The position numbers were made by a program, and so were the translations under genes. This document shows, in pieces, positions 829-22,029 of a stretch of DNA of 29,249 bases. The stretch spans positions 1-29,249 of IMG/VR virus record IMGVR_UViG_3300028428_000098; one strand, written 5' to 3'. Source of the stretch: a virus. How positions within the stretch are numbered: the first letter of the stretch is position 1; each line of letters starts with the position of its first letter. The notes below the pieces were generated by a model. That model ran no database searches. It had not been told where the DNA came from and saw only the letters and a program-made list of their open reading frames with translations.

Positions 829-851
829 AAGAAACTCCTCAAACAAAGCCC

Positions 852-876: not shown

Positions 877-924
877 ATGAACAGGTGAAGGGATGGGACG
901 TGCTTGTATCTGCCGGAGCAGAGA

Positions 925-2183: not shown

Positions 2184-2237
2184 TTACTTGTTTGCGTTGG
2201 CCTTTGCCTTTTTGGCAGCCTTCTTGGCACTGCTCTT
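2184..2237 (-). other. In-frame Lys/Ala-rich extension after a stop codon
   Basis: Directly after the TAA stop of the upstream gene (2238-2240) the same frame continues for 17 codons and ends at a TAA (2184-2186). The codons would encode KSSAKKAAKKAKANANK. Codon choice (AAG, GCC, AAC) looks like real coding. This is either stop-codon readthrough, a recent nonsense mutation, a sequencing error or chance. The extension is strongly basic while the protein it would extend ends in an acidic stretch. Confidence 0.4.
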
Positions 2238-2624: not shown

Positions 2625-2630
2625 CGTCGT

Positions 2631-3557: not shown

Positions 3558-3566
3558 TGGGGGCCT

Positions 3567-5594: not shown

Positions 5595-6015
5595 GGGGGT
5601 AGTTCCTTGTCAGCAGGCGGTGGGCTAGGCGGTGGGGGGTCAGTGCCCACGGCAGGTCAACCCCACCCGTGCGGGCGGCTGCCCTTGTCGCGGCCACACA
5701 GTCGCCCCAGCCAGCGGACCACAGTCCGATCGGTGGCCAACCCGCCAGGCTGGCCAGGTCGGGCGGGCGTGGGCAGGGAACCTCGATGGCCAGCCCGAGG
5801 CCGGGGAAGTTCTGGGCATAGTCCAACAGGGGCCACAGCCGGGTGCCAGCCGGGCCAGTTTCCAGCACGATCGACCCGTCCGAGAGCGCAACGTGGGTGA
5901 ACCGCACGCGGCGGTCGAGCATCTGGATGCCCAGCACAATCGCCCGATGACAGTGCGATCTGAACGCCCCGCTTCCATCAGAGAACAAAACAAGTGCCCT
6001 GATGGGTGCAGCCAT
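5578..6015 (-). CDS. Putative permuted papain-like (NlpC/P60/YiiX-type) hydrolase
   Basis: A 145-residue protein starting MAAPIRALVLFSDGS. His41 lies in FTHVAL, Glu52 in IVLETGPAG, and Cys106 in a WGDCVAATRAAARTGG helix, followed by LTPHRLAHRLL. An N-terminal histidine strand and a C-terminal catalytic cysteine helix is the order of permuted papain-like amidases. These cut amide or peptide bonds, some in cell walls. It lies directly downstream of the RNA polymerase gene. It could be a cell-wall or lipid-linked hydrolase or a virion enzyme. No good ribosome binding site is seen before this ATG, so the start is less certain. Confidence 0.5.
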   Translation of the reverse strand: MAAPIRALVLFSDGSGAFRSHCHRAIVLGIQMLDRRVRFTHVALSDGSIVLETGPAGTRLWPLLDYAQNFPGLGLAIEVPCPRPPDLASLAGWPPIGLWSAGWGDCVAATRAAARTGGVDLPWALTPHRLAHRLLTRNYPHAWLH

Positions 6016-6059
6016 ATTTGTTCGCCGATGGCTAACGCACTGAATGGGTAATCGTGTGG

Positions 6060-8624
6060 TTACTGAAAGGCATAAGACTCTTGCTCGATTCCGAGGACGC
6101 GCGTGATGTCCAGCGTCCCGTGCTTTGGCGGCGGCGGAAGAACGACCTCGGGGTACAACGCCGCCCACTCCGCAGCCAGTTCGGCAAGGATGTCGCGCGT
6201 GTAGAGCATGACAAGTTGCTCTAGGACGATCTGCCTGCCGCGCTTGGAGTTGCCCGCGTGGAACCAGAAGTTGTCATGCACCAGCATCATCTCGATGTGC
6301 TCGGCACGGCACGCCACCCCGACCATGTGCGCGTGCGTCGAGTCGAGGCTGTGGATGAAGTTGGCCGCGATCCCGTTGACGTGCTTCTTGACGCGCACCG
6401 GGGCCTTCTCGTCCTCGTAGTCGATGTAGGAGATCTCCTGGAGGACGGTCTTGATTTTCTTGTAGGTGTTCTTGCGGTAGCCCTGGATCACCGGGAACCC
6501 GAGCGGGGTTGTCCAGCGAACCAGATGCCCAGCCGTGGCGATCCGCAGGGCGCACGCCCGCAGCCAGGCCATGATCTTCGCCGCCACGTAACTGACCTTG
6601 GCCAAGCACTTCATCGTGATCTTGGCGAGGTACGCAGACCCGCGTGTTACCTCGTCTTGCGTGAGGCCATGCTCGACAATCTCGTCGCGGATTTGCTGCC
6701 TGGCACCTGACTCGGTTACGCCGTAGGTATCAGCGAGAACCGTGGTTTTGAGCGTCTTGCGCTGGATGCACCGCTCGACGACACGCGCGATCGGGACAAA
6801 CTCCTCGTTGGTCTCAGCCATGACTTCCCGCAGGACCATCTCGGAGATGATCGTGTAGGGGTCGTGGATTACTCCGGTCGGCAGCAGGTTGACCGCAGCA
6901 GCGCCGATGGGGTCGCGCCCGAGCATGGCGTAGTGCTGGAGTCCGTTGCACGCCCCATCCCACTGGCATGGCACAAAGCGCCCGATGCCGTCGGGGTCGG
7001 CCACGCCACGGCACGCCGCGACAAACTGCCAGGGGTTCTCCGCTTGCAGCGCCAGCCCGGACGGCTCGTCGGCCTTGGCGATTCGCTTGATCTCAGGCAG
7101 GTTGCTGTCCACCCAGGCCACGCGCTCGTGGTACAACTGCTTGTCCACGGGCTTGCCGAACATATTGGCCGCGTGAATCTTGAGGTACCGCAGGCCGTCC
7201 GGCCCGGGCCTGATGCCGTTCTTGAACAGCAGCAGCCCGCGCGAGATATCGTCGCCCTGGTGGTTCAGTTGGGCGGGGATGGCGTACTGCCGGAACCGGA
7301 AGTCACCCTGGCAGGGGAACCACATCGGCAGCGCGGCGAACCGCTCGGCCACCGTGATCTTGTCGAGGTAGCACCTGCGGTCGGCTGTGCGGCGCCGGTT
7401 CTCGGTGGCGTTGACCCGCACCTTGGCCTTCCAGTCTTTGAGGTCATCGGGCAGCACCCGCTTCCACCGCTGCCCGCGCGGGGCCGTCTTGCGGTAGCCG
7501 TTGGGCTTCGGCACCGGGGGCAGGTTGTCGGCGTGCGGGACGCCCGCGTGGTTGCCGCCCTGTTTGTAGATCGCCTTCATGTCGTCGAGGGCCTTGGTGT
7601 TCACCGCCAGCGGTGTCGATTGGAGGCACCAGTGGGCAAAGTGCAGTTCGTCCAGGCGACCATCGCGCGTGCGTGCCGCCAGTTCCCGGCGGAGTTCGGG
7701 GCTGGGCTTGGAGACCAGCGGCGTCCTGATGCGGATGTAACCCCCCGGCGTGTCCCGTGTCGCGGGCATCGGCTCAACGACCATCGGCTGGTACTGCGGG
7801 CGCATGAGTTCCCGCGCCGCGTGGCCCTCGGCGACCAGTTCGATCGCCTCGTCGGTCAACTCAACCATCCCGACGCGGTACTTCTTGCCGGGCACCTTGA
7901 TCTTCTGGCGACGGAAGGCGGGCTGGAAGGGCTTGTCGTACCCGTCGGTCGTACACCACTCGATGCACGACCAGAGCAACCGCTCGCCCAGCATGATGCA
8001 CGCGCGCCGGTGGTCGCTCGCGTCCGAGAGGTTGCGGCGTGCCCACCAGTTGATCTTCTTGGGCTGGCTCGCGCGGAACCGCTCGACGATCAGGTTCAAC
8101 AGTTCGTTCTCGTCGGGCATGCGCACCTTCGGGTCTGGCCGCTTGCCGCTGGCGATCTCCTCCTTCATCCGGTTGCGGTACCTGCGCCGGGCGTACTTGT
8201 CGTGGTCCTTCATCTCGGCGAACAGCAGCTCGGCCAGCACCGCGCGGCCGATCGCGTGGGTGAGCCGAGCCACGGTGATCCCGTCGGTGTCGGTCAGGCA
8301 CATGCCGAGGGACTGGTTGAGTGCGATCACCGCCAGCACGTCGGGGTGAATCTCGTTGAGCACCGGCCTGATGACGGTCGAGTTGTGAATCTTTGCGCCC
8401 GCCGCGATCGAGCGTTTGAGTTTGCTGATGTCGGCGGAGACGGCGCGGAACCAGTGCCCGACCAGACGCTCGCCCGGCTTGAGGTTTGCGCCGTTGCCCT
8501 TGTCGGTCTCCTTCTGGGCGAGTTCGCGGTAACGCTTCACGCCGTCCTCGACTGCGCTGCGCTCCAACTCAAACTCGATGTCGATGAGGCTGCCCGCTAT
8601 CAACCGCTCGGTGGCTTGGTGCAT
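6060..8624 (-). CDS. T7-type single-subunit DNA-directed RNA polymerase
   Basis: An 854-residue protein (T7 enzyme: 883) that transcribes phage genes from its own promoters. Motif A is WDGACNGLQHY with catalytic Asp556. Motif B is RKTLKTTVLADTYG, with Arg622, Lys626 and Tyr634 spaced exactly as Arg627, Lys631 and Tyr639 of T7. Motif C is LVHDNF with catalytic Asp784, and FIHSLDSTH (from 756) matches the T7 FVHSQDGSH region. The C-terminal foot is YAFQ instead of FAFA. The specificity-loop region (about 704-735) differs strongly from T7, so a different promoter is expected. It lies downstream of the replication block and upstream of the portal. Confidence 0.96.
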   Translation of the reverse strand: MHQATERLIAGSLIDIEFELERSAVEDGVKRYRELAQKETDKGNGANLKPGERLVGHWFRAVSADISKLKRSIAAGAKIHNSTVIRPVLNEIHPDVLAVIALNQSLGMCLTDTDGITVARLTHAIGRAVLAELLFAEMKDHDKYARRRYRNRMKEEIASGKRPDPKVRMPDENELLNLIVERFRASQPKKINWWARRNLSDASDHRRACIMLGERLLWSCIEWCTTDGYDKPFQPAFRRQKIKVPGKKYRVGMVELTDEAIELVAEGHAARELMRPQYQPMVVEPMPATRDTPGGYIRIRTPLVSKPSPELRRELAARTRDGRLDELHFAHWCLQSTPLAVNTKALDDMKAIYKQGGNHAGVPHADNLPPVPKPNGYRKTAPRGQRWKRVLPDDLKDWKAKVRVNATENRRRTADRRCYLDKITVAERFAALPMWFPCQGDFRFRQYAIPAQLNHQGDDISRGLLLFKNGIRPGPDGLRYLKIHAANMFGKPVDKQLYHERVAWVDSNLPEIKRIAKADEPSGLALQAENPWQFVAACRGVADPDGIGRFVPCQWDGACNGLQHYAMLGRDPIGAAAVNLLPTGVIHDPYTIISEMVLREVMAETNEEFVPIARVVERCIQRKTLKTTVLADTYGVTESGARQQIRDEIVEHGLTQDEVTRGSAYLAKITMKCLAKVSYVAAKIMAWLRACALRIATAGHLVRWTTPLGFPVIQGYRKNTYKKIKTVLQEISYIDYEDEKAPVRVKKHVNGIAANFIHSLDSTHAHMVGVACRAEHIEMMLVHDNFWFHAGNSKRGRQIVLEQLVMLYTRDILAELAAEWAALYPEVVLPPPPKHGTLDITRVLGIEQESYAFQ

Positions 8625-8685
8625 TTGTCGTCCGTGACGTGAGGGAATCCACTGCCGGCGCGTTGGCGCGGGGGAGTGGGGATGG

Positions 8686-8895
8686 TCATTGGGTAACGGT
8701 CTTTTGCTGCTGCCTCGCCCACGCGACGGCCTTCCACGCCGCCACGACCGGGCAGGGGTCGAGGTGGGCCATGCACACCCGACCCCCTTGATGGATCACC
8801 CAATACTGGTTGGGCGTGATCCCGTGCGGGCCTGTGTTGCCCATCGGGTAGGTGCCCGGCTCGTCGGGCCACTTGATGCGGTTGGGGAGGGTCAT
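8686..8895 (-). CDS. Small unknown protein
   Basis: A 69-residue protein starting MTLPNRIKWPDEPGTYPMGN, coupled to the upstream gene through an ATGA overlap. Trp-, His- and Pro-rich, with two cysteines (CMAHLDPC). No family recognised. It precedes the RNA polymerase gene by 61 bases that contain a GCGCG inverted repeat. Confidence 0.55.
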   Translation of the reverse strand: MTLPNRIKWPDEPGTYPMGNTGPHGITPNQYWVIHQGGRVCMAHLDPCPVVAAWKAVAWARQQQKTVTQ

Positions 8896-9188
8896 GGGTA
8901 CTTTTTGGGATTGCAGACTTCCTTGATAATCGCTTCAAGATGTTCGCACACGCCCCGCCCGAGTGGCGTACGCGCCGACTGTGCTGACTTGTGCCACCGA
9001 CACAGGATGCGAACGCACCGATTGCGTTCCTTCAGCACACCCGCATTTGCCGCGCGCTTCTGAGAGCAGTCAATCTGGTTGGCCTCTTTGCGGCTGTTGG
9101 GGTCTAGCCGCACCTCACGCACGGTCTGGCTTTTCCACCGGGCTATGTGCCTCTCCCCCGCCGTCGCTTTCTTCGCCTTCTTCTTCAT
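8892..9188 (-). CDS. Small basic protein, unknown
   Basis: A 98-residue protein with a lysine-rich start (MKKKAKKATAGERH) and GGAG six bases before the ATG. It has five cysteines (in DCSQK, RCVRIL, LCRWH, VCEHL and VCNPK) and several histidines that might bind a metal. High positive charge suggests nucleic-acid binding. No family recognised. Confidence 0.5.
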   Translation of the reverse strand: MKKKAKKATAGERHIARWKSQTVREVRLDPNSRKEANQIDCSQKRAANAGVLKERNRCVRILCRWHKSAQSARTPLGRGVCEHLEAIIKEVCNPKKYP

Positions 9189-9206
9189 CCGTTTCTCCTT
9201 GAATCT

Positions 9207-9231
9207 GGCCCCGCGCTGTGGGCGGGGGGCC
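9207..9231 (-). terminator. Intercistronic GC hairpin
   Basis: GGCCCCGC is followed by an imperfect complementary GCGGGG-GG-CC just after the stop of the gene ending at 9236. No T-run follows, so this may be an RNA-stability or processing hairpin and not a true terminator. Confidence 0.3.
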
Positions 9232-9235
9232 GGGG

Positions 9236-9526
9236 TTAGCCTTGCTTGTTTGCTAGCAAGGATCGGTCGTACTCAAACTCACGTGTGCTTGCGGGCCACG
9301 AGATCGTGATGCCCTCCAGCCCAAGCCGACTCGCCGCTTCCTTCAACACCTGTTCTGCGGTGAGTAACGACACATCCACGTTCCCATCGAAACTCACTTT
9401 GTTGTGGTCGATGCGAAGATGACCAACAAAGGATGGGCTGGGGTGGATGCAGTCGCCATCTCGCGGGCCTTTGTATAGACCCTCGAACAGTTCTTGCGCA
9501 TTTTCGACTCGGTAGATCGTTTTCAC
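9236..9526 (-). CDS. Unknown protein
   Basis: A 96-residue protein if the GTG at 9526 is used (start of VKTIYRVENAQELFEG). This avoids the 32-base overlap caused by the other GTG at 9565, which has no visible ribosome binding site. The protein is mildly acidic, with mixed strands and helices. No domain recognised. It is one of several small genes between the sigma-like gene and the RNA polymerase gene. Confidence 0.5.
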   Translation of the reverse strand: MKTIYRVENAQELFEGLYKGPRDGDCIHPSPSFVGHLRIDHNKVSFDGNVDVSLLTAEQVLKEAASRLGLEGITISWPASTREFEYDRSLLANKQG

Positions 9527-9533
9527 TTCTATC

Positions 9534-9953
9534 TCACTTTCTGCCCTCTCGGGCGTGTCCGCCACGCGGCGGGGTTATTGGGGGGCGGGGGGGTTTCGGT
9601 GCCTTCTTCCTCTTTGCAGCAACCCGGTCGGATGCAGGGGGCACCATGTCTGAACACCAGATGTCGAAGCGGTCCTCAAACTCGTGCCGATCCACTACGT
9701 AAAACAGGGGGCTGTCATGGATCACCCAGTCCCCTATTTCCGCGACATCTCCGATATCCGTTACAACAATCACCTGGGTTTTGGCGTTGAATCTCTGAAA
9801 GTAGTTTGGTCGTGGGTGGGTCTTTGTCGGGTACTCCCCCATGAACGAGGTGCTTGCCTCCACTCCGCCGTGGCACCATGCCGCAACGGCAACCGCCGAT
9901 GCTTCGGTTACTTGGTGTGCAACGAGATGGCGCACCTTTGGGGTAACGATCAC
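9534..9953 (-). CDS. Unknown protein with basic Pro-rich tail
   Basis: A 139-residue protein starting at GTG 9953, which overlaps the upstream stop (GTGA) and has AAGGAGA upstream. The first 110 residues look folded, with a beta-rich QVIVVTDIGDVAEIGDWVIHD segment. The tail (about residues 114-139) is a basic, proline-rich run (AAKRKKAPKPPRPPITPPRG). The longer open frame that continues upstream inside the neighbour is not used. No family recognised. Confidence 0.5.
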   Translation of the reverse strand: MIVTPKVRHLVAHQVTEASAVAVAAWCHGGVEASTSFMGEYPTKTHPRPNYFQRFNAKTQVIVVTDIGDVAEIGDWVIHDSPLFYVVDRHEFEDRFDIWCSDMVPPASDRVAAKRKKAPKPPRPPITPPRGGHAREGRK

Positions 9954-10261: not shown

Positions 10262-10479
10262 GTTCTTGGCATCCTCTTGTAATCCCACGGCGAGAAATAC
10301 TCATCCTCCGTTGTGCCGCAATACTTGCAGATATCCGAGCCTGTCAGGGCCGCGTGAAACTCGTGGTAGCAAACCACGCCCTCCCCACGCTGGACCTTCT
10401 GCCTTCTGAACACGTTGTCAATCTCGAACACAACCTGCATCGCGGCTTCCTTCAACTCGGCTAACTCTTTGTCAGTCAT
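10258..10479 (-). CDS. Small protein with possible zinc site
   Basis: A 73-residue protein starting MTDKELAELKEAAMQVVFEI, coupled by ATGA to the sigma-like gene. A C-Y-H...H and a C-K-Y-C-G group (VVCYHEFHAALTGSDICKYC) could bind zinc. It may be a small DNA- or protein-binding partner of its neighbours. No family recognised. Confidence 0.5.
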   Translation of the reverse strand: MTDKELAELKEAAMQVVFEIDNVFRRQKVQRGEGVVCYHEFHAALTGSDICKYCGTTEDEYFSPWDYKRMPRT

Positions 10480-11357
10480 GTTGCCCTCCCCTTGCCCGCC
10501 ACGCCCATGCTGTGAAGATGATCCGCCAACCGCTTGGCGGCGCGTGAGACCATCTTGCTCGCGGTCGAGTGTGTAACCCCGAGCATCTTGCCGACCTCCC
10601 ACATCCGCAGCCCACGATCTACCCGCAGGCGCATCGCCTCCAACACCCGCGCGTCCACACCGATGGACTTGTGGCCGTCAGGATCGTCAAGGATCAGCCG
10701 CACTACGCGCGCCTGGCGGATCATCGCCTCGGCGTCTTCGTTGGCCCACACTTGCGACTGGACGCCAGCCGACTGCCCGCCCTGGGCGCGGGCACCGTCG
10801 ATTGCCCGGACGCGCTTGCGTTCAACCCGGCGAATCTCAGCCCCGTTGTTTATCAGTACCCACTTGGCGTATGTGCTGAACCTCGCGGCACGTTGAGCGT
10901 CGAACGACCAGACCGCACGCATCAGGGCGATCATCGCCTCGGCCCTGCCGGTGTCGCCTTTGCCGAGGTGCCAGGCGTGCTTGTGCGCGATCCCGGCATA
11001 CGTCGCCACGATGATCGACTCGAACCGTCTAGACATGACCAGCCAGACATCCGCTTCCTCTGGCCTTGCGAGCCGAGTGTCTTGCCCCATCCCGGCGCGG
11101 ACGTAGCACAAGTTCATGGCGACAAACAGAGCGTTCTCCTGCAACCTCGTCAGCGTGCGATGGGCGCGCTTGGGGTACGTCGTCAGCGTGTGGTACCTGA
11201 TGACGTCCTCGGCTCGACCGAGCACAAGGCTGTCTACTCCCTGGTCGTTCTGCTCGATGCTCGGGTGCATCACCGGCTTGGGCCGGGCGGTGATGCAGAT
11301 GACGCCGCGCATCAACCGGCTCGGCGAGACGGGCTTCTCGGCTGGTGTCGTGCTCAC
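10476..11357 (-). CDS. Sigma70-family RNA polymerase sigma factor-like protein
   Basis: A 293-residue protein from GTG 11357, chosen because it overlaps the previous stop (GTGTGA). Residues about 136-180 read as sigma region 2: AEAMIALMRAVWSFDAQRAARFSTYAKWVLIN.., with the typical 'L..A...FD..R..RFSTYA.W.I' pattern. Residues about 234-282 (RMWEVGKMLGVTHSTASKMVSRAAKRL) read as a region 4-like helix-turn-helix. A 100-residue N-terminal part has no recognised domain. It would bind host core RNA polymerase and redirect it to phage promoters. It sits just downstream of dnaB. Phages with a T7-type polymerase normally do not need one, which makes it unusual. Confidence 0.75.
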   Translation of the reverse strand: MSTTPAEKPVSPSRLMRGVICITARPKPVMHPSIEQNDQGVDSLVLGRAEDVIRYHTLTTYPKRAHRTLTRLQENALFVAMNLCYVRAGMGQDTRLARPEEADVWLVMSRRFESIIVATYAGIAHKHAWHLGKGDTGRAEAMIALMRAVWSFDAQRAARFSTYAKWVLINNGAEIRRVERKRVRAIDGARAQGGQSAGVQSQVWANEDAEAMIRQARVVRLILDDPDGHKSIGVDARVLEAMRLRVDRGLRMWEVGKMLGVTHSTASKMVSRAAKRLADHLHSMGVAGKGRAT

Positions 11358-11647
11358 ACGCCACCCCCCGGATGTGCCAATGTCAAGAGCGGAACAACCT
11401 CCCAAGACTCCTTCGGGTCCGTGCCAGAGTGCAAGCCCAGGATGCCACAGAATCCATCGGCGTACCTGACCGACGCGACCACCCACAGGCCCGGCGTGCG
11501 GTGCAGCATCTCGATCTTGCTGAACCGTGCGTGCTCGTTGTAGTGATCGCCCCGGTCGATGGTGTCGCCGATGCGGTACTCGGTTCCGGTCGGTGTGTGC
11601 TTCGCCATCTTGAGCCGGGTCCAGTTCTGGGGGATGGTGTTGGTCAA
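11354..11647 (-). CDS. Unknown protein, TTG start
   Basis: A 97-residue protein. The TTG at 11647 is chosen because it overlaps the upstream stop (TTGA) and has a strong AAGGGAGGTG seven bases before it; an internal ATG 39 bases later is the alternative. Beta-rich sequence (TEYRIGDTIDRGDHYNE, then RFSKIEMLHRTPGLWVVASVRYADGF). No family recognised. Confidence 0.55.
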   Translation of the reverse strand: MTNTIPQNWTRLKMAKHTPTGTEYRIGDTIDRGDHYNEHARFSKIEMLHRTPGLWVVASVRYADGFCGILGLHSGTDPKESWEVVPLLTLAHPGGGV

Positions 11648-11937
11648 GCCCCACCTCCCTTGCCATGCTCGTTGCACTTCGCCGCGATCACGCGCTTGAG
11701 TTCGTCCAGCGGGTACATCGCGCTCTTGCCGACCTGCGCCGTCCTGATCCCGTACTTGACCACCATCCGGCGGAGTGCCCGCTTTCTGTCCCTGGTCTTG
11801 GTCTTGTCGATCCGCAAGTAGCAGATCGACTCCTCGTCCGTCAGCAACGACGAACACGGGCGCGGTGGGTTCGTCGGCAGGATGTTGGTCGGGTCGCACG
11901 CAAACACGGTGATCTGGGCGGGTGGTTCAGAAGCCAT
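11644..11937 (-). CDS. Excisionase/MerR-like helix-turn-helix protein
   Basis: A 97-residue protein starting MASEPPAQITVF. The ATG lies inside the last codons of dnaB (11-base overlap). Residues about 35-88 (LLTDEESICYLRI..KRALRRMVVKYGI.TAQVGKSAMYPLDELKRVI) follow the pattern of small winged-helix excisionase-type domains: a T-x-x-E-x-x-x-x-L start, an R-x-L-x-x-x-V turn, and a final 'y...dL...i' strand-helix. It could be an excisionase or a regulator. It is far from the integrase, so a regulatory role in replication or transcription is also possible. Confidence 0.5.
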   Translation of the reverse strand: MASEPPAQITVFACDPTNILPTNPPRPCSSLLTDEESICYLRIDKTKTRDRKRALRRMVVKYGIRTAQVGKSAMYPLDELKRVIAAKCNEHGKGGGA

Positions 11938-13318
11938 AGGTTTTCCTCTCGTAGTTCTTGAATCGCGTCTGCGCTGCAACGAACGTCAACTTCGCAGTGC
12001 CGCACTCGCCGTTGCGGTTCTTGGCGACGATCACCTCGGCCAGACCCACCTTGTCGTGGTGCGTCGATGCCCAGTTCTCGTCGTCGCGGTGGTAATACTC
12101 CTCGCGGTGCAGCAGCATCACCGTGTCCGCGTCCTGCTCCAGCGAACCGCTGTCGCGCAGGTCCGACAGTTTGGGCTTGTTGTTGTCCCGGTTCTCGGCG
12201 TTGCGGTTGAGCTGGGCCAGGGCCAGCACGGGCACCTGGAGTTCACCGGCCAGAGCCTTGAGGTCGCCGCTGATCTCGGTGATCTGCTCGTAGCGTGGCA
12301 CCTTGCCGCCCCGGCCCGCGTGCTGGATCAGCCCGAGGTAGTCGATGACGACGAACGCGGCGCCGTGCTGGCGGATCGCACGCCGAGCGCGGGCGCGGAT
12401 GCCGCCCATCGCCAGACGCGGGGTGTCGTCGATCAGCACCCGCACGTCGGTCAGGTCTTGGGCAGCCGCCAGCAGTTTCTCCCACTCGGCACTCTCCAAG
12501 TCGCCGCGGCGGATGCGGTTGCTGGGGATCGCAGCCGTCCCAGAGAGAAGCCGCTGGGCCAGTTCCATCCGGCTCATCTCCAGCGAGAAGAACAACACAT
12601 GCCGGCCCGTGGACTCCGAGACTTTGCGGGCGATATCCAGGGCCAGGGCAGACTTGCCCATGCTCGGGCGCGCCGCCAGCAGGATCAGTTGCCCCGGCAT
12701 CATGCCCGCCACCACAGCGTCGAGGTTCGCAAAGCCCGTGGCCAGCCCGACCGTCGTGCCCGGCTCGCGCTCGAACAGCCGCTTGGCCTCGCCGAAGACG
12801 ATCTCGCCGACGGTGTTCATGCCCCCGACGGTGCGGGGCTTGTTGACGGCCAGCACGCTCGCCTCGCAGCGGTCGATGATCGCGTCGGTCTCCTCGCCCG
12901 TGCCGGCGGTGTAGACCTCGTAGAGCGTGCTGGCGCAGGCCGTCGCCAACTGCCGGAGCCGGTGCTTGTCGGCCACGATCTTGGCGTAGTAGACGGCGTT
13001 GACTGCTGACGGCACAGACTCCAGCAGGTCGTTGAGGTACGCGGCCCCGCCCACCGACTCCAGCACCCCGTCGTCGCGGAGTTTGTTGAACAGCGTCATC
13101 ACGTCGGCGCTGCTGGTGCCGTCGAGTTTGACGATGCCCGCGTAGATCGCCTGGTGTTCCGGCTTGGTGAACGCATCCGAGGACAGCATCGGGGACACCT
13201 CGGCGATCACGCCCGGCGCAAGCAGCATCGCCCCCAGCACGCACCGCTCGGCCTCGACCGACGCGGGCGGTTGCCGCTCGAAGAGTTTGTCGAGTTGGAC
13301 GGGCGGGGGTTGCTTCAT
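11927..13318 (-). CDS. dnaB: Replicative DNA helicase, DnaB-like
   Basis: A 463-residue protein, the full length of bacterial DnaB. The N-terminal domain (about residues 10-110: PPASVEAERCVLGAMLLAP...) is followed by the RecA-fold motor. Walker A is ARPSMGKSALAL with Lys222, Walker B is FVVIDYLGL with Asp326, and the later LAQLNR and SGSLEQDAD motifs are intact. The hexamer would unwind DNA at the replication fork and recruit host primase and polymerase. It is coupled by ATGA to the initiator-like gene upstream, the arrangement of lambda O/P-type or initiator/helicase modules. Confidence 0.93.
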   Translation of the reverse strand: MKQPPPVQLDKLFERQPPASVEAERCVLGAMLLAPGVIAEVSPMLSSDAFTKPEHQAIYAGIVKLDGTSSADVMTLFNKLRDDGVLESVGGAAYLNDLLESVPSAVNAVYYAKIVADKHRLRQLATACASTLYEVYTAGTGEETDAIIDRCEASVLAVNKPRTVGGMNTVGEIVFGEAKRLFEREPGTTVGLATGFANLDAVVAGMMPGQLILLAARPSMGKSALALDIARKVSESTGRHVLFFSLEMSRMELAQRLLSGTAAIPSNRIRRGDLESAEWEKLLAAAQDLTDVRVLIDDTPRLAMGGIRARARRAIRQHGAAFVVIDYLGLIQHAGRGGKVPRYEQITEISGDLKALAGELQVPVLALAQLNRNAENRDNNKPKLSDLRDSGSLEQDADTVMLLHREEYYHRDDENWASTHHDKVGLAEVIVAKNRNGECGTAKLTFVAAQTRFKNYERKTYGF

Positions 13319-14301
13319 GGCACAGCCCCCGTCTGAATAGCCAGCCACTCCTCCGCAAACTCGGCGAAGTGCGAGTCGGCGCAGAGGGCCTCGATGTTCT
13401 CGGGTTCCATCTGGCCACCGCTGACAAGGGCCATCCGCTTACTCAGGTCTGCCATCACGCGAGACTTGGGTGCGTTCCTGATGCGCTCGTAAACCCACTC
13501 GAACAAGTCGTCATTGCCGCGCATGCCACGGTCGAGCAGCCGCTTGGACAACGAAGGCGGCTTCAATGCCAGCGTCTCTTCCGCTGGCTGGTAGACCTCC
13601 CACCTCCGCTGGTTCAGCCACGTTGCGGGCAACGGCACCCACTGCCCGTCGTCCTTCGTCGCGTCCCGGCTGGTGGCGTACTGCTTCACCCCGGCGATGA
13701 CGGCGGAAGATATCTTCCCGAGATGCTTGGACTTCCAGATGGACGCGCACCCATCTCGGTTGACCTTCCGCTTGCTCTTGGGGTATGCACTCCAGAACTC
13801 GTCGAATCCTGTTAGGTCGATGTTTGTTGTTGAGTGAACCTGCTCAACACTGTCTTTATTCTTCTCTTCTCTTCTCTTCTCTGGTCCGCATTTTGTCCGC
13901 ACGACCTCGGAACTTTTGCGGACACTTTGCGGACAAAATGCGGACACATCTTGTTCGGGAGATATGCGGGCCAGCGACTTGCGGCCGTTGTCCACCGCCC
14001 GACGCTTCGCGGCCTTGCCGTGGTGAGCGTCAAAGTTGGGCATGATGCAGACATCGTTCTCGATCTTGAGCCATTCCACCGCGATCATGGCCTCTGCCAG
14101 TCCGGGCAGCCCGACCATCTTGTCGAGCGTTTCACCATCAAGCCCGAGGTTGCCGTTCGTACTGTGTTCGTCAGCGAGCGACCACACAACATACAGCGCA
14201 CCGACCACTTCCCACGCCTGGCGCGAGAGTGCTACACCCATGCGCACCACCTTCGGGTGGTGGTGTAAGTGCAGTCTCATCTTGATCCAATCAGCACTCA
14301 T
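13315..14301 (-). CDS. Phage replication initiator / helicase-recruitment protein
   Basis: A 328-residue protein starting MSADWIKMRLHLHHHPKVV; GAGGTG lies six bases before this ATG, so it is preferred to the in-frame start at 14340. Residues about 1-85 look like the N-terminal winged-helix domain of phage replisome organisers ('W.K....l..hPK...l......vGal..lW'). The charged middle is followed by a second small domain (about 160-235) with FDEFWSAYPKSKRKVNRDGC, common in phage O-like and DnaD-like proteins. It directly precedes dnaB with ATGA coupling. Iterons lie inside the coding region (13883-13946) and just upstream, as expected for an origin-binding initiator. Confidence 0.7.
   Translation of the reverse strand: MSADWIKMRLHLHHHPKVVRMGVALSRQAWEVVGALYVVWSLADEHSTNGNLGLDGETLDKMVGLPGLAEAMIAVEWLKIENDVCIMPNFDAHHGKAAKRRAVDNGRKSLARISPEQDVSAFCPQSVRKSSEVVRTKCGPEKRREEKNKDSVEQVHSTTNIDLTGFDEFWSAYPKSKRKVNRDGCASIWKSKHLGKISSAVIAGVKQYATSRDATKDDGQWVPLPATWLNQRRWEVYQPAEETLALKPPSLSKRLLDRGMRGNDDLFEWVYERIRNAPKSRVMADLSKRMALVSGGQMEPENIEALCADSHFAEFAEEWLAIQTGAVP
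13815..13882 (+). other. Candidate duplex-unwinding region beside the iterons
   Basis: Within the initiator gene, next to the first iteron cluster, lies a stretch with lower GC than its surroundings (TTTGTTGTTGAG..., TGTCTTTATTC) followed by a run of about five CTTCT-type pentanucleotides (13859-13882), a strict polypyrimidine tract. An inverted repeat GTTGAG/CTCAAC spans 13829-13848. Lambda ori has the same plan of iterons followed by an easily melted, strand-biased tract inside gene O. Role inferred. Confidence 0.45.
13883..13946 (+). repeat. Iteron cluster inside the initiator gene
   Basis: Three copies of TGCGGACA start at 13917, 13928 and 13939, exactly 11 bp apart. Two copies in the opposite orientation (GTCCGCA, ending at 13890 and 13901) are also 11 bp apart. 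The block at 13904-13944 matches 14308-14348 at 37 of 41 positions. Helically phased repeats beside an initiator gene are typical origin-binding sites. Confidence 0.7.
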
Positions 14302-14320
14302 GCGAACACCTCGGAAATCG

Positions 14321-14408
14321 TGCGGACACTTTGCGGACAAAATGCGGAAGGTTTGCGGACAAACTGCGGAACAAATGCGGACACTTTGCGGACAGAATGC
14401 GCCGCACC
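14321..14408 (+). repeat. Tandem 11-bp iterons upstream of the initiator gene
   Basis: TGCGGA-type units start at 14321, 14332, 14343, 14354, 14365, 14376, 14387 and 14398 (the last degenerate), a perfect 11-bp period. Common forms are TGCGGACACTT and TGCGGACAAAA. They fill the gap between the RusA stop and the initiator start, so binding could both start replication and repress the initiator's own transcription. Confidence 0.75.
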
Positions 14409-14409
14409 G

Positions 14410-14835
14410 TTAGGTATTCTCTAGGTGTATCGTGACCCGTGCGCCGGGGGGTGCGCCGATGGCCCGGTAGAACTTCCGAACGTGCAGGTCATACACCTGG
14501 CAGTCGTCCTTCCACCACCCGCCGTCGTCGGTCAGCGCGTCGAGGATTGCCTTCACCAAGTTGTCGGCGTCGGGCTTGATCGCCAGGGGCACCGCATCGG
14601 GTGAACTCTTCCGGGTCAGCAGGCGCTTGGGCCGGTCGAGTGCCAGGTCAACGACCATCCGCACCGGACCTTCGTGCCGCTGTGGTGGGCGGTGTGGCAT
14701 TGCCGCCGATCGGACCAGCACCTTCCACCCGTCTGCCGTCTTGGGCGTATACATGCGGGTGAACCCGTTGATGGAACTGGCCTTGGCTCGGGGTGTGGCC
14801 TTCGGCTCGCCTTGTACGTCGAATGTGATCTGCAT
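14410..14835 (-). CDS. rusA: RusA-family Holliday junction resolvase
   Basis: A 141-residue protein starting MQITFDVQGEPKATPRAK, the usual RusA N-terminus; a GTG at 14877 would add 14 residues. The family signature KPDADNLVKAILDAL is present with Asp89, Asp91 and Lys95, followed by WWKDDCQV with Asp110/Asp111, matching the acidic residues and lysine that bind metal and cut. The dimer would resolve four-way junctions or branched DNA made during phage replication and before packaging. It lies between the recombination genes and the origin. Confidence 0.88.
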   Translation of the reverse strand: MQITFDVQGEPKATPRAKASSINGFTRMYTPKTADGWKVLVRSAAMPHRPPQRHEGPVRMVVDLALDRPKRLLTRKSSPDAVPLAIKPDADNLVKAILDALTDDGGWWKDDCQVYDLHVRKFYRAIGAPPGARVTIHLENT

Positions 14836-14873
14836 AAAACACCACCCGAGCGTCAGCCCGGGCGGCGTGTAGT

Positions 14874-15326
14874 TCACTCTGCTGCCGGAGCCGGGGCCTT
14901 GTCGGCGGCGTCCTCGGCCTTCTGCTCGAACAGGTCGGTGCCGTCCCGAACCGAGTCCACCAGATCGAACAGCGTGCTGATCGTGCTCTTGTACCGTTCC
15001 TTCGCAGCCTTGGCGTGGGTGTCGGCGTCCTCGGCCTTGGCCTCGAAGCGGGCGACGTCAGAGTCCAGCCCCGTGAGTTTCTTGCGCAGGTCTGCGGGCG
15101 TGAGTTCCAGGTCCTTGATCGCGCTGCTGATCTCGGTGCGTGCCTCGTCCGCGGCAGATGCGTTGGTCTTGCGGGTCTCCTTGTACTCCTTGAAGTCCTG
15201 CTCTGCCTGCCGGGCTTCGTTGACCAGGGCGATGAGCCGGTCGCGGGTGGACTGCGAGAGCGGGCGGTTGTCGGGCGGGGATGGGGACTTGGACGGGGGC
15301 TTCTTCTTGGACTTCTTCTTTGCCAT
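14874..15326 (-). CDS. Coiled-coil protein with lysine-rich start
   Basis: A 150-residue protein with AAAGGAG before the ATG. A very basic N-terminus (MAKKKSKKKPPSKSPSPP) is followed by long helices with heptad-like spacing (about residues 28-135). No enzyme motif. The basic end may contact DNA, and the coiled coil suggests a dimer. It lies between the ERF annealing protein and the RusA resolvase, so it may aid recombination or bind single-stranded DNA, but no family is recognised. Confidence 0.6.
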   Translation of the reverse strand: MAKKKSKKKPPSKSPSPPDNRPLSQSTRDRLIALVNEARQAEQDFKEYKETRKTNASAADEARTEISSAIKDLELTPADLRKKLTGLDSDVARFEAKAEDADTHAKAAKERYKSTISTLFDLVDSVRDGTDLFEQKAEDAADKAPAPAAE

Positions 15327-15351
15327 GGTGATCTCCTTTGAGGGAATGACT

Positions 15352-15373
15352 GGCGCGGGCTTTCACCCGCGCC
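15352..15373 (-). terminator. Perfect 8-bp GC hairpin after the ERF gene
   Basis: GGCGCGGG (15352-15359) and CCCGCGCC (15366-15373) enclose a six-base loop, directly after the ERF stop. There is no T-run on the minus strand, so partial termination or mRNA stabilisation are both possible. Confidence 0.4.
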
Positions 15374-15391
15374 GGGTCAGGCGTCGCGCCA

Positions 15392-16156
15392 CTAGATTTT
15401 CATCCAGTCAACACCAGCCTCGATCTGCTGGCTGATCCACGCCGCCACCTTGCCGTACTGCTCGGGGGTGTAGGAGGCACCCTCGGCCAGTTTGGGCAGG
15501 CCCGCACGATCCGCCGACTTCCTGAGCATGGAGCCGATCTCGGCGGTCTCTATGGCTTTGAGGCCCGTCCACTGGCGGACCAGAGTGATGCACTGAGTCC
15601 TGCCTGGGTTGGCCGGGGTTGCGGGTGGTGTGTGCCGCTGGGTCTGGGTCGCCGGCTGGGCAACACCCGCGCCGTCGTCCTCCTCGTCGCTGGTGATGCC
15701 GATCATCGACGACAGGCCGTACCGCCGGGCGTAGGTGATCGCCGCGCCCATGCGCTGAATCGGCATGGTTTTTTCGTTGGCCTTCTCGTAGCCAGCACCA
15801 CCGCTTTTGACAGCGAAGATCGCAGATACCCACTGACCGGACGAGTGAGCCAGGATCGTCTTGATTTTGATGCTCTCCCCGTCGCTCATCACAGGCTGGA
15901 ACACAGCCAGCCCGTTCTTGCTCAGAGGCCCGCGGCACGCATCCCATATCGCAGCTAGGTCGGCGTACATCACGCCCAGGTGCGGGTTGCGGGCGTCCTT
16001 GATTGCAGAGCGGATCTCCCCCTGCGCTACCGCCAATGCACCTGCAAGTTTGCCGATGTCTGCGGTCTGCTCATACTGCCCGACCACCACGGTCAGGGGT
16101 GCGGGCGCGGCATCGGGCGCGGGACGGGTGTCTGCGGTGGGGCCTTCATTGGGCAT
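15392..16156 (-). CDS. erf: ERF-family single-strand DNA annealing protein
   Basis: A 254-residue protein starting MPNEGPTADTRP, overlapping the nuclease gene by 11 bases. Residues about 35-150 match the ERF recombinase pattern: LAGALAVAQGEI, NPHLGVMYADLAAIWDACRGPLSKNGLAVFQP, and the MGAAITYARRYGLSSMIGI hallmark, followed by an acidic EEDDGAGV linker. Such proteins anneal complementary single strands and, with a nuclease, circularise or repair phage DNA. The Cas4-like nuclease next door is the likely partner, making a Red-type pair. Confidence 0.9.
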   Translation of the reverse strand: MPNEGPTADTRPAPDAAPAPLTVVVGQYEQTADIGKLAGALAVAQGEIRSAIKDARNPHLGVMYADLAAIWDACRGPLSKNGLAVFQPVMSDGESIKIKTILAHSSGQWVSAIFAVKSGGAGYEKANEKTMPIQRMGAAITYARRYGLSSMIGITSDEEDDGAGVAQPATQTQRHTPPATPANPGRTQCITLVRQWTGLKAIETAEIGSMLRKSADRAGLPKLAEGASYTPEQYGKVAAWISQQIEAGVDWMKI

Positions 16157-17063
16157 TGGTTGACTCCATTTCGTAGTGCTTGCAGAACGTGCGGCTATCG
16201 CACAGGTGGCATCCAGTGGTGTTCGGGTTCGTCGGGTGCAGACCGGCACGGTCCATCCGCACCATCTCGCGCAGGTCTTCGATCACCGCGTCGGTGTTGT
16301 TGATGAGAACGTCCCGCACCACCGCGTTGTGTGGGCGGGTGTCCCCCTTCTTGTATTGCACGACCTTCCCCGTTTCGTCCTTGACCGACTGGGCCTTCTT
16401 GAACGGCATCAGATTGCGGACCTGCACCCACTCCACAATCGGGGCGTCGCCGAACTCGACCCACTCCTTCGAGACCAGGGCGCCGAGATCGTCGAACGTC
16501 GGCACCTCCACCCGGCCACGCTCGAAGCACAAGTGATACAGCCCGAGCTGCTTGTTGCGGCGCAGGTAGTCTCGGGTTGGCGAGTCCTCCACCGTCTTCC
16601 AATCCCAGACGTACACGAAGTCGCCGACGTAAAACGCCAGGTCGATGTGGCTGGCGAACTCCGCCGGCACGCCGTCAACGTCGAGCGTCAGGCGGACGGG
16701 CAACTCGCACCCGATCAGCCGGGCCGACGCGAAGTAGTCGGCAAACCGGACCTGATACGCCTCGATCCACTCGCAGACCTCGGCGAGCAACTCAGGCTCG
16801 GCCTCGATGACGGCGTGAGACTTGGGCCTGCCCTCGTCTAGCACGCGGGCCGAGACGATCTTGCCCGCCTTGGTGGCGATCGACCGGATCGAGTCGCGGT
16901 CCCACAGGTTCATGGTGTGGACCATCGTCGCGGCCTCGTGGAAGACCAGACCCAGGTACAAAGCCGTCGTCGTCTGCCCGATGATCTTCCCCTCGTGCCG
17001 CAGTTGCACCGCCCGACGGCAGGGGTTGATGAGATCACTGGTGTGGTACTCAGAGAGCGGCAC
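16146..17063 (-). CDS. Cas4/RecB-like PD-(D/E)XK nuclease with Fe-S cluster motif
   Basis: A 305-residue protein starting at GTG 17063 with AGGAG upstream. Nuclease residues are His43 (FHEA), Asp141 (HIDLAF), Asp154 and Lys156 (WDWKT) and Gln172 (KQLGLY), the usual order in RecB-family nucleases. Cys15 plus Cys285, Cys288 and Cys294 follow the C...C-x2-C-x5-C arrangement that holds a 4Fe-4S cluster in Cas4 and AddB. It would resect DNA ends. No CRISPR array or other cas gene is present, so the role is phage recombination with the ERF protein. Confidence 0.85.
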   Translation of the reverse strand: MPLSEYHTSDLINPCRRAVQLRHEGKIIGQTTTALYLGLVFHEAATMVHTMNLWDRDSIRSIATKAGKIVSARVLDEGRPKSHAVIEAEPELLAEVCEWIEAYQVRFADYFASARLIGCELPVRLTLDVDGVPAEFASHIDLAFYVGDFVYVWDWKTVEDSPTRDYLRRNKQLGLYHLCFERGRVEVPTFDDLGALVSKEWVEFGDAPIVEWVQVRNLMPFKKAQSVKDETGKVVQYKKGDTRPHNAVVRDVLINNTDAVIEDLREMVRMDRAGLHPTNPNTTGCHLCDSRTFCKHYEMESTNAQ

Positions 17064-18206: not shown

Positions 18207-18869
18207 ATGGCTACCGCAGCAGAAGTCGTTCGCCGGTTGAGGGAGGAGCGCGGTCTCACCCAGGCCGAACTTGCAGAGCGATTCAAGAAGACTCCGCAGT
18301 GGATATTCAGCGTTGAAACCAGCCGCATCAAACTCAGAGAACCCCTCCGCGCCAAGTTTGCCAACGCCTTCGGGATCACGCTGGCCGACTTCGACCGCAT
18401 GTGGCAGCACTCCACCATGCCCCTGCAAACAGCCGAGAACAAGGGCATCCCGATCATCAACAAGACCCCGGCGGGTGAGGCCCTGAACTACCAGGAGTAC
18501 GGCGTCAGCAGCAGGCACGGGCACGCCTACTTACCCCGCGATGAGGACACCCGCAGCGAGGAACTCTTTGCTGTCCAGGTGGTCGGGGATTCGATGCTTC
18601 CTCGAATCCGAGAGGGGGATCACGCGATCCTCTGGCCGATCCCCGAGGGCTACCCCGAGGAGCAGCTCGACGGGCGTGTGGTGTTCGTTCACTTCCAGGC
18701 CGACGACACCTGCCAGATAGCCCGTCTGCACTGGATGGATGACACCGACAAGGAACTGGGCCGGCGGGTGGAACTTCGCAAGGACAACCCCAAATTCAAG
18801 GGGCGGAAGGTCTGGTTCAGCGAACTCGACCAGCTCGCCGTCGTCGTGCAGATCAGGGGCAAGCCATGA
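18207..18869 (+). CDS. Phage repressor: XRE helix-turn-helix plus S24 (LexA/CI-like) domain
   Basis: A 220-residue protein that would hold the phage in lysogeny. Residues about 4-58 form an XRE-type helix-turn-helix (VVRRLREERGLTQAELAERF). The S24 domain keeps a putative cleavage bond Ala89-Gly90 (TPAGEAL) and the nucleophile Ser129 in VVGDSM. Aligned to LexA 'EVTVKRL', the strand reads TCQIARL, so the catalytic lysine position seems to be Ala172. Self-cleavage may therefore be absent or altered. It is transcribed divergently from the lytic operon and is coupled by ATGA to a lipoprotein gene. Confidence 0.85.
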   Translation: MATAAEVVRRLREERGLTQAELAERFKKTPQWIFSVETSRIKLREPLRAKFANAFGITLADFDRMWQHSTMPLQTAENKGIPIINKTPAGEALNYQEYGVSSRHGHAYLPRDEDTRSEELFAVQVVGDSMLPRIREGDHAILWPIPEGYPEEQLDGRVVFVHFQADDTCQIARLHWMDDTDKELGRRVELRKDNPKFKGRKVWFSELDQLAVVVQIRGKP

Positions 18870-19183: not shown

Positions 19184-19318
19184 TTGGGGCAGATTTTGGG
19201 GGAACTCCAACGGCGTTCCAGCAGAGTCCGTGCGGACTACCAGTGGCGACGGTCAGGGGTTGTGTTGTCAGGCAAAGGTCAGGCACCAGCAGTTGAGCGG
19301 ACGCGCCGTGTCGGGCGT

Positions 19319-19365
19319 AAGACGGATTTGCAATCCGCCCCATTAGACCACTCTGGCACGCGGCC
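19319..19365 (-). tRNA. tRNA-Cys 5' half (not a functional gene), probable att core
   Basis: On the minus strand the sequence starts with GGCCGCG (acceptor 5' strand), then a D-arm (CCAG...ATGG) and a complete anticodon arm GCGGA-TTGCAAA-TCCGT with anticodon GCA (Cys). After TCCGTCTT no T-arm and no CGCGGCC acceptor partner are found. The match ends just after the anticodon arm, as expected for identity with a host tRNA gene used for integration. Confidence 0.7.
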
Positions 19366-19397
19366 GACGCCGAAATATAGCCCTGGCACAACAGAAA

Positions 19398-19434
19398 CGC
19401 GGGGTCCGACGGTTAGGATCCGACGAACCCCGCG
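19398..19434 (-). terminator. Terminator of the orphan capsid gene
   Basis: CGCGGGG (19398-19404) pairs with CCCCGCG (19428-19434), plus a T-A pair. The loop is 21 bases and contains an inner TCCGA repeat. Read leftward, the hairpin is followed by GTTTCTGTT. It lies 30 bases after the stop of the gene ending at 19465. Confidence 0.5.
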
Positions 19435-19464
19435 CGTTTGGGGCAAAGTTGGGGCAAAAGACCA

Positions 19465-20628
19465 TCAGGTCAGGCCGCGTATCACGCCGTGCGCCGCCTC
19501 ATTGCGGACCTCCAGCGTGTACTCGCCAACTACCAGACCGTTGTGCTGGCCGTTGATACAAGGCAGATTCTTGTAAGCAAAACTTCTACCTAACAGCGGA
19601 AGCACCGATAGGCGAGTGCTGTCCAGGAGCAGCACCGCATCCATCGGTACCCACCGGCTCAGCACAATCTTGCACGGACCGAAGTCGCTCTCGTACACAT
19701 TGATCGCGTCTCGGTATCGAGTGCCGCTCATGTCCACGTCGGCTAGTGATGATCTAAAGGCGTTGATCCTTCGCTTCATCGTGCCGCCCACCACGATCGT
19801 GTTGACAAGCACACTTCTTCCATCCCAGATTTGTTTTGCCGCGGCGTTGAGCATGGCCTCGCTCAGTTCTGTGCCGCCACCATCCCCCCTGGGAATACCC
19901 CCGGCACCAGGAGTCATCACGTTCGTGGTCAACTGCGGGATGATCCCGCTCATCGCATGGCGAAGCACCGTCCCGAGGTACTGCGTCGAGGCCGACACCC
20001 CGTTGATGACGCAGCTTTCAAGATCACGGAGTAACTGACGCAGGCGAGTATGCTTCTGATAGTCCATCTCGTCGCTGATTGATATACCGCGATCCTTCGC
20101 CAACTGCTCCGAAGCACTCACGTTTGCAGAGAAGACCTGCGCGTAATTGCTCTTCGCCACTCGGTTGATGAACCGAGACTGCGATTCACCGGCGCACCCC
20201 TCTATAGATGGGTTGCCGATAATCAGCAGCCGCTGCCCACTGCTCAACGCAGAACCCTTCGACGCACCGTATCGGCGGGACACCCTGACGACGCCGTCGG
20301 TGATGTCCAGGACCAGCATCACTTCACTTGAACCATTGGGTCGCAGCAAGTCTCCAACTCGCAGGCGCGACGGCTTGATTGTCGTAAGCACCGTCGCGTC
20401 TGTCGCGTTCGGGGTGAACGTCGTCTGCTTGATCGTGTCGAAGTTCGGTAGCAGGTCATCGTCAAACCAACTGTGCAGGCCACTCATCGCCACCCGACCA
20501 GGATCACCAAGGTGGTCCAGCAGCGGGGCCTCGCTGGGTGAGATGATCCCCACCAACGTGGCAAGGTCTTCGGCGTTCTCGATCTGGTTTTCGGGTATGT
20601 CCATCAAGCATTTTCCAGTAAACGGCAT
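19465..20628 (-). CDS. Orphan SU10-type (DUF5309-like) major capsid protein
   Basis: A 387-residue protein starting MPFTGKCLMDIPENQIENAEDL, eight bases after AAGGAG. It follows the SU10 major capsid pattern: 'MxFTGK', DLATLVGIISPSEAPLLDHLGDPGR, HSWFDDDLLPN, a middle with LRQLLRDLESCVINGVSAS, later YRDAINVYESDFGPCKIVLSRW, and an EYTLEVRNEAAHGVIRGL end. These are HK97-fold shell proteins. It stands alone between attP and integrase, far from the head block, which has its own T7-like capsid gene. It has its own candidate promoter and terminator, and its codons use more A/T at third positions than neighbours, suggesting recent transfer. Role unknown. Confidence 0.75.
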   Translation of the reverse strand: MPFTGKCLMDIPENQIENAEDLATLVGIISPSEAPLLDHLGDPGRVAMSGLHSWFDDDLLPNFDTIKQTTFTPNATDATVLTTIKPSRLRVGDLLRPNGSSEVMLVLDITDGVVRVSRRYGASKGSALSSGQRLLIIGNPSIEGCAGESQSRFINRVAKSNYAQVFSANVSASEQLAKDRGISISDEMDYQKHTRLRQLLRDLESCVINGVSASTQYLGTVLRHAMSGIIPQLTTNVMTPGAGGIPRGDGGGTELSEAMLNAAAKQIWDGRSVLVNTIVVGGTMKRRINAFRSSLADVDMSGTRYRDAINVYESDFGPCKIVLSRWVPMDAVLLLDSTRLSVLPLLGRSFAYKNLPCINGQHNGLVVGEYTLEVRNEAAHGVIRGLT

Positions 20629-20654
20629 GTGCATTTCTCCTTTGTTATGTCAAG

Positions 20655-20684
20655 TGCATAGTTCTGATACGAAGACACGATCAA
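20655..20684 (-). promoter_or_regulatory. Possible promoter for the orphan capsid gene
   Basis: On the minus strand TTGATC (-35 like, 20684-20679) and TATGCA (-10 like, 20660-20655) are 18 bases apart, just before the AAGGAG of the capsid-like gene. The -35 overlaps the integrase stop codon. Weak match, but the location fits an independent transcription unit. Confidence 0.35.
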
Positions 20685-21832
20685 CTAAGAGCCGCATCGG
20701 TCGCCGGCTCACCCCTCAGCGCCCGCAGTTGGGCCTCCAGCCTGCGAATCTGTGCGCCCTTGTCCACCCCGGCGATCGACTCAATCTGTTCGGGTGTGGG
20801 CCGGACGTAGTGGTTCTGCATCACCTCGGGCGAGTGGCCCAGCCAGTACGCCACGGTGGGCACGGGGAACGCCTGCACCCAGTCCGTCTCCAGGCTCTTG
20901 CGTAGGGTGTGTAGGGGCTTGCCATAGGTCGCCACCCCTGCCCGCTTGCGGATGGCCTGCGCCACCCGGCTGGCCTCTTGCGGGGTGGTCGGTGCCCCAT
21001 CGCACGGGCCGGCAGCGCACGCACCCGACTCGAACACCTCCAGCAGCACCGCCCGCAACTCGGGGCTGATGGGCACCTCGCGCTGGTCGTGCTTGGTGTC
21101 GGCCTCCGCTGCCCGGCCACCCCGATCGGGGATGCGGACGATCAGTTGGGCCGGGTGGTCGAAGCGGATGTCCTGCCAGGTCAATGCCCGGGCCTCGTTG
21201 AACCGCAGCCCGGCCATGCGTGCGAGCGCGAAGATGGCCCGCCAGCCAGGCCCCGGCGCGGCGTCCATGATCTTCCGCACGTCGGCGATGGGGACGTAGG
21301 CCCAGGTGCCCATGATCTTGGGCACGCTGGACCGCTCGCCCTTGAACGGGTTGATCCGCACGCCGGTGTCGCGCGGGTGCCGCATGGCGTGGGCGAAGAG
21401 GGTCTTGGCGTTGCGCATGTGCTTTCGCACCGTCGCCACGCTGATCGGCCTGCCCTTGATCTGTCGCTTCTCCAGCCACAGGCGGAAGTCGGCGGCGTGT
21501 GCCGGGGTGATGTCGGCCACCTTCCGCCCTTCGCCCAGGTGGTTGGTCAGCAGGTCGATGGTGCTGCGGAGTTCCCGCGCCGACGCCGGGGCCAGGTCGG
21601 TGCGGAGTGTGAAGAACCTCGCCACCCACGCGGCGAGTGTCATGTCGCCGGTCGCTTCCAGCAGGCTCGGGTCCGCCGTGAGTTCCGCGGCGAGTTCCCG
21701 CCGTCGGCGTTCGGCCTCACGCCTTGGCACGTCGGCGATCGCGCCGGCGGATCGGCTGACCCGCTTGCCCTGGTGGGTGTAGACCAGTTTCCAGTAGTCG
21801 CCGTTGCGTTCGATGCGTACGTCGATGGTCAT
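20681..21832 (-). CDS. int: Tyrosine recombinase integrase
   Basis: A 383-residue protein that would insert the phage at a host tRNA-Cys gene. Residues about 1-50 form an arm-type DNA-binding region, about 62-155 the core-binding domain, and the rest the catalytic domain. Catalytic residues are all visible: Arg210 (MAGLRFNEAR), Lys247 (TKHDQREVPI), His308 and Arg311 (HTLRKS), His333 (YWLGHS) and Tyr342 (NHYVRP). The ATG overlaps the stop of the upstream small gene (ATGA). The C-terminus ends in a short coiled-coil-like tail. The orphan capsid gene lies between it and attP, an unusual separation. Confidence 0.95.
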   Translation of the reverse strand: MTIDVRIERNGDYWKLVYTHQGKRVSRSAGAIADVPRREAERRRRELAAELTADPSLLEATGDMTLAAWVARFFTLRTDLAPASARELRSTIDLLTNHLGEGRKVADITPAHAADFRLWLEKRQIKGRPISVATVRKHMRNAKTLFAHAMRHPRDTGVRINPFKGERSSVPKIMGTWAYVPIADVRKIMDAAPGPGWRAIFALARMAGLRFNEARALTWQDIRFDHPAQLIVRIPDRGGRAAEADTKHDQREVPISPELRAVLLEVFESGACAAGPCDGAPTTPQEASRVAQAIRKRAGVATYGKPLHTLRKSLETDWVQAFPVPTVAYWLGHSPEVMQNHYVRPTPEQIESIAGVDKGAQIRRLEAQLRALRGEPATDAALS

Positions 21833-22029
21833 GGCGCACCACCCCCGCCGGCCCCGGTAGCCAGTGCCGCGTCGTTCGTGCGTGCCTTGATCGCCTCCTC
21901 CAGCGCGACGCGGATGGAGTCGGAGCGCAGCCACTTCCCCCCCCGCTCGGCTTTGAGCAACGCGGCGAGTTGGTCGGCGAGCGCGGGGATGTTGTCCTCG
22001 GCTCGGGTGTTGATGTATTGCCAGGTCAT
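21829..22029 (-). CDS. Small protein coupled to integrase
   Basis: A 66-residue protein starting MTWQYINTRAEDNIPALADQ at ATG 22029, chosen because GGAG lies six bases upstream; a start at 22062 lacks this. The part LAALLKAERGGKWLRSDSIRVALEEAIKAR is helix-rich and could be a small DNA-binding fold. The tail is Gly/Ala-rich. ATGA coupling to the integrase makes it a candidate directionality factor, but no family is recognised. Confidence 0.5.
   Translation of the reverse strand: MTWQYINTRAEDNIPALADQLAALLKAERGGKWLRSDSIRVALEEAIKARTNDAALATGAGGGGAP

Follow-up and report, generated by a model that had tools for sequence, protein, structure and literature searches.

A candidate attachment site carrying the 5' half of tRNA-Cys in the unintegrated form of a Phycisphaerae phage

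The viral DNA analysed here (29,249 nt, IMG/VR record IMGVR_UViG_3300028428_000098; hereafter the window) contains the 5' half of a tRNA-Cys(GCA) gene, flanked by an integrase gene and a SU10-type capsid gene on one side and by a CI/LexA-like repressor gene on the opposite side (Table 1). It is very probable that this region is the attP site of a temperate Phycisphaerae phage in its unintegrated form, and that the phage integrase recombines the anticodon arms of attP and the host tRNA-Cys gene. The first-pass annotation had proposed an attP candidate with the 5' half of tRNA-Cys, and the 44/44-nt match to a host gene, the flanking phage genes and an integrated counterpart in genome G038 support that proposal.

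Table 1. Features of the attP region and its neighbouring genes (window coordinates)
Feature	Position	Strand	Evidence or remark
CI/LexA-like repressor, HTH and peptidase S24	18207..18869	+	PF13560, PF00717, phrog_4
TTGGGGCA and a weaker copy, far side, candidate arm site	19184..19205	.	not significant vs control
Three GTCAGG copies, far side, candidate second repeat family	19252..19283	.	fourth copy at 19469
tRNA-Cys(GCA) 5' half, block common to attP and attB	19322..19365	-	identity to host tRNA-Cys; 44 nt
Anticodon arm, inferred core/crossover region	19322..19338	-	stems GCGGA/TCCGT, 7-nt loop TTGCAAA (19327-19333)
TATATT, -10-like hexamer, candidate phage-borne tRNA promoter	19374..19379	-	8 nt before G1; sequence reading
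Hairpin after the SU10-like gene, then T-rich tail; possible terminator	19395..19439	-	inverted repeat
Two TTGGGGCA copies, integrase side, candidate arm sites	19438..19456	.	not significant vs control
SU10-type major capsid protein gene, between integrase and attP	19465..20634	-	PF17236 E 2.4e-57
Tyrosine integrase ORF	20681..21934	-	PF00589 E 1.9e-11, PF13102, phrog_1 E 6.4e-42

On the minus strand, the 44 nt from 19365 to 19322 begin at G1 of tRNA-Cys(GCA) and end with the final base of the anticodon stem. Read as tRNA, they comprise the acceptor 5' strand, the D-arm and the complete anticodon arm, with the anticodon GCA in the loop at 19333-19327; beyond the anticodon stem the window departs from all host tRNA-Cys genes compared. 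Comparison with the host gene confirms that the match spans these parts and ends there, as first annotated. Of the limits originally given (19319-19365), the end at 19365 is correct but the other overruns by 3 nt, the exact end being 19322. No complete tRNA was detected within the window (outside which ~14 kb of the phage lies) by ARAGORN or at Rfam gathering cut-offs, and these searches rule out a whole or Sec-type tRNA at the attP position. A tRNA-Sec reading came from a lax Rfam match only (E 0.47) and is noise, and a closeness to the tRNA-Ser of BcepIL02 was dismissed, as the BcepIL02 gene is an ordinary tRNA-Ser(TGA).

The first-pass annotation had staked its reading on a matching host tRNA-Cys gene, and such a gene is present in the metagenome-assembled genome (MAG) of Phycisphaeraceae bacterium isolate 42896_E15 (G003), where an intact tRNA-Cys on contig C62 is identical to the phage block over 44/44 nt and differs at the next bases. 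A second, less similar tRNA-Cys lies on contig C83. An exact scan of genome contigs with the first 43 nt matched five MAGs (four titled Phycisphaerales or Phycisphaeraceae and one 'Isosphaera sp.'), so that chance is excluded as the source of the match; all five matching genes are complete tRNA-Cys genes according to ARAGORN. Within the family of G003, the presumed host family, 113 of 163 genomes matched a 481-nt attP query (E 1e-8). Among the matches listed, the aligned part is essentially the tRNA block alone (mostly query positions 115-159, some extending a few bases further), and the boundaries of the attP block recur in the matches to these 113 genomes. The attP flanks had no match past a few bases in the 163 family genomes. 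In a class-wide draw, the 35-nt core was found with at most two mismatches in 17 of 397 genomes, one copy each.

The same MAG also holds a 9326-nt contig that equals window positions 51-9376 at 100% identity; this binning ties the phage to the host, although the link is weak by itself. Other phage-like contigs in G003 are C18, C50 and C93. C50 (L089) is a contig of a related phage that matches window 8686-9580 at 90% identity, and no CRISPR-like repeats were seen in its first 1200 nt. The search suggested earlier, for a host tRNA-Cys with prophage junctions, found the gene, but no lysogen of the window phage was seen in the class draw or the family genomes searched. Integrase relatives occurred in 165 of the 397 class-draw genomes at E 1e-20, with identities of about 30-40% and at most 40%, and at E 1e-45 none of the 163 G003-family genomes matched in a search run without a positive control.

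An independent IMG/VR record (G404) overlaps both ends of the window, over 8832 nt at the start and 140 nt at the end, at 100% identity and in the right order, and by arithmetic the two close as a circle of ~43.4 kb, with ~14.1 kb outside the window. This circular map places attP inside phage DNA, and together with the phage genes on both sides it identifies the window as the unintegrated form, in agreement with the initial annotation. The phage gene set includes a T7-like RNA polymerase, portal, head-assembly, capsid and terminase genes, and a phage lambda-like recombination and replication set (Erf, exonuclease, RusA, replication initiator and DnaB). The genome is mosaic at window 6060-8624 and 13315-17063, where T7-like RNA polymerase and virion genes occur with lambda-like Erf, exonuclease, RusA, DnaB and a CI-like repressor. 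A sigma-factor-like ORF (window 10476-11666, minus strand) is found in this phage that has its own RNA polymerase.

The SU10-type gene is a second capsid gene, the other (phrog_267) lying at 925-1959. It is intact, and its protein is 62% identical to one on G003:C18, with dN 0.28 against dS 0.96, so that it is apparently under purifying selection. Cargo, a spare capsid and interference with another phage are candidate roles. No close relatives of the integrase or of the SU10-like capsid protein were found in IMG/VR.

We surveyed 71 integrase loci in the class of G002 (30 from the class search, 40 further loci taken mostly in list order, and L095). A complete tRNA or tmRNA gene was present at most 460 nt downstream of the integrase match in 54 of the 71 loci, and 17 had none. 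The 3' end of the tRNA or tmRNA faces the integrase gene in 53 of these 54 loci, and the 5' end does so in one (L042, in G038). These numbers, like the 3760 islands with a 3' fragment against 159 of 3919 with a 5' fragment in the Islander study (PMC4383910), bear out the earlier remark that phages more often carry the 3' part. The window attP, with 1316 nt and the SU10-like gene between the integrase stop and G1 of the tRNA half, differs from the 54 surveyed integrases that have a tRNA or tmRNA close downstream.

The exceptional locus is an integrated counterpart of the window layout in a distant relative. Its integrase is ~35% identical to that of the window and adjoins an intact tRNA-Met. 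At a distance of 20 kb from this gene there is a displaced 5' half, identical over 42/42 nt, that stops at the anticodon stem. Copies of a 20-bp direct repeat stand on both sides of the common block, 118 nt before it and 82 nt after it, a placement in the sequence that suggests arm sites. In this genome (G038:C10, L042 and L092), the integrase ORF continues through the entire rebuilt tRNA-Met; the tRNA is therefore probably inside the integrase transcript, and the C-terminus of the integrase would change upon integration.

Displaced fragments were sought in seven elements. Those of the 3' type were found in G203 (nt 31-72), G365 (nt 28-73 and 32-73), G059 (nt 38-72) and G304 (nt 28-74), with a short one in G303 (nt 30-49, 20 nt); none was found in 36 kb of G131. 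The 5'-type blocks of these related elements (nt 1-42 or 1-44) and the 3'-type blocks (from nt 28, 31 or 32 onward) overlap in the anticodon arm alone, which points to a crossover there, and the core in Table 1 was delimited from this overlap. One of the 3'-type elements (G304:C97, L083-L085) is a ~39.6-kb prophage in tRNA-Thr(TGT), with its displaced 3' half at 40059-40105 of the contig. This prophage from the same host class has a T7-like RNA polymerase, portal, TerL and integrase relatives in common with the window phage and its block also starts at the anticodon stem, but unlike the window it carries the 3' half of its tRNA (tRNA-Thr nt 28-74).

Could the half tRNA have an origin other than a functional attP? 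It might be the remnant of an att site used by an earlier integrase that has since been replaced, with integration now occurring elsewhere, as the distance to the present integrase gene and the intervening capsid gene would allow. Nevertheless, the block matches the host gene perfectly, 54 of the 71 surveyed loci of this integrase family adjoin a tRNA or tmRNA, and we regard such a remnant as very unlikely. A phage-borne tRNA gene that decayed by losing its 3' part, with no role in integration, is even less likely. Whole tRNA genes do occur in phages, and the 35-nt core is also present in four IMG/VR contigs that matched attP, in each as part of a complete tRNA-Cys; yet the 44 nt of the window are free of decay, they start precisely with nt 1 and stop precisely where the anticodon stem ends, and the related integrated element in G038 has the same truncation as an att duplication.

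A junction between host and phage, or a join made in assembly, is the least probable origin of the region. The window is a metagenomic contig and no second viral contig covering attP was found in IMG/VR, but phage genes lie on both sides, the circular map has the support of an independent record, and the attP flanks are without match in host genomes. We return to the reading of the region as attP. Features that mark tRNA-targeting att sites were found in it, namely a tyrosine integrase, a host-identical fragment that reaches the gene end and, in silico, a junction that restores the tRNA.

In the mechanism that we propose, the integrase would recombine two anticodon arms, one in attP and one in the host tRNA-Cys gene, and the block overlap would place strand exchange in the anticodon loop. 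When the two anticodon loops were crossed in silico, a complete tRNA-Cys formed at the integrase-side junction only; the far junction and attP contained none. Since nt 1-44 come from the phage, the junction on the integrase side would join the phage 5' half to the host 3' half as a perfect tRNA-Cys. The host promoter and the host 5' half would be moved to the far, repressor-side junction, and the rebuilt tRNA would then be expressed from phage DNA, through its own promoter or by read-through.

Several sequence elements near the tRNA half might take part in these steps. A consensus scan found no full sigma-70 site before the tRNA half, where TATATT is the candidate -10-like element. The predicted hairpin (-29.8 kcal/mol, z -4.1) stands between TATATT with the tRNA half and the SU10-like gene, and it is possible that it acts as a terminator shielding the tRNA half; a simple terminator scan did not call it. 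Copies of TTGGGGCA start at 19184, 19438 and 19449, and copies of GTCAGG at 19252, 19267, 19278 and 19469 (25 in the whole window). The repeats are thus present as first described, and they may be integrase arm sites, but a control does not support them as significant: some 8-mer occurs at least three times in 52 of 566 other 316-nt stretches, so that the window repeats are not clearly beyond chance. They are also weaker than the 20-bp repeat of G038.

The origin of the 5' polarity was examined with a tree of 70 integrases (69 loci and the window, with three fragments shorter than 300 aa dropped). The window and L042 were grouped in 0 of 200 bootstrap trees. L042 pairs instead with L095 of the same genome (support 100/100), and these sister integrases of G038 are opposite in polarity, L042 being of the tRNA-Met 5' type and L095 having the usual 3' orientation at a tRNA-Lys. 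The window sits on a long branch whose partner, the 3'-type L029, is itself long, and the exact placement of the window is unsure because of this pairing. The 5' type was accordingly found twice, on separate branches of the integrase tree, once as sister to a 3'-type integrase in the same genome, and it seems to have arisen on more than one occasion. That the anticodon arm is nearly symmetric may be the reason for this recurrence. A more tentative idea, which we consider possible though rather doubtful, is that att polarity is switchable: integrases of one family would use the nearly symmetric anticodon arm either way, the phage would carry whichever tRNA half lies between the core and the integrase gene, and in 5'-type lysogens the host tRNA-Cys would come under phage-borne transcription.

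By the Islander study (PMC4383910) and a review (PMC8371274), the 5' type is a known but uncommon kind. In PMC4383910, the 5'-fragment islands likewise carry the 5' part of the target tRNA and have ends marked by the intact gene and a displaced 5' fragment, and the site classes include anticodon-centred crossovers such as the one proposed for the window; those cases are integrated islands, whereas the window is a free phage attP in Planctomycetota. According to PMC8371274, bacterial recombinant tRNA genes retain their original promoter with very few exceptions, while for pTN3-like archaeal integrases, which resemble the window system in having the 5' half of a tRNA gene as attB, the recombinant tRNA is expressed from the integrase promoter. 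In that account the pTN3-like integrase gene is split by integration, whereas the window integrase gene does not span the att site, its stop being 1316 nt away; the G038 relative, unlike the window, has an integrase gene overlapping the tRNA. The window also resembles the tRNA-dependent lysogeny of mycobacteriophages (PMC10865867) in combining a tyrosine integrase with a tRNA gene that serves as attB. In those phages the core measures ~10 bp, no tRNA is rebuilt and a whole tRNA is provided by the phage, whereas the window has a 44-nt block rather than a short core and its tRNA-Cys is rebuilt in silico. Among the matches listed, our literature search returned no paper on a planctomycete tRNA attP, and 5'-type att sites only in the works cited here; the available text of PMC11476347 contains nothing on 5' halves.

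The present case adds a new member to this kind, a free phage attP of 5' polarity found in Planctomycetota for which the same class also provides an integrated counterpart. It offers a clean free-phage example of this polarity for which the host gene, the integrated counterpart and the 3'-type relatives all come from one bacterial class. The case makes it possible to test how the polarity of a tRNA att site is set, and whether transcription of a host tRNA gene passes to such a phage.
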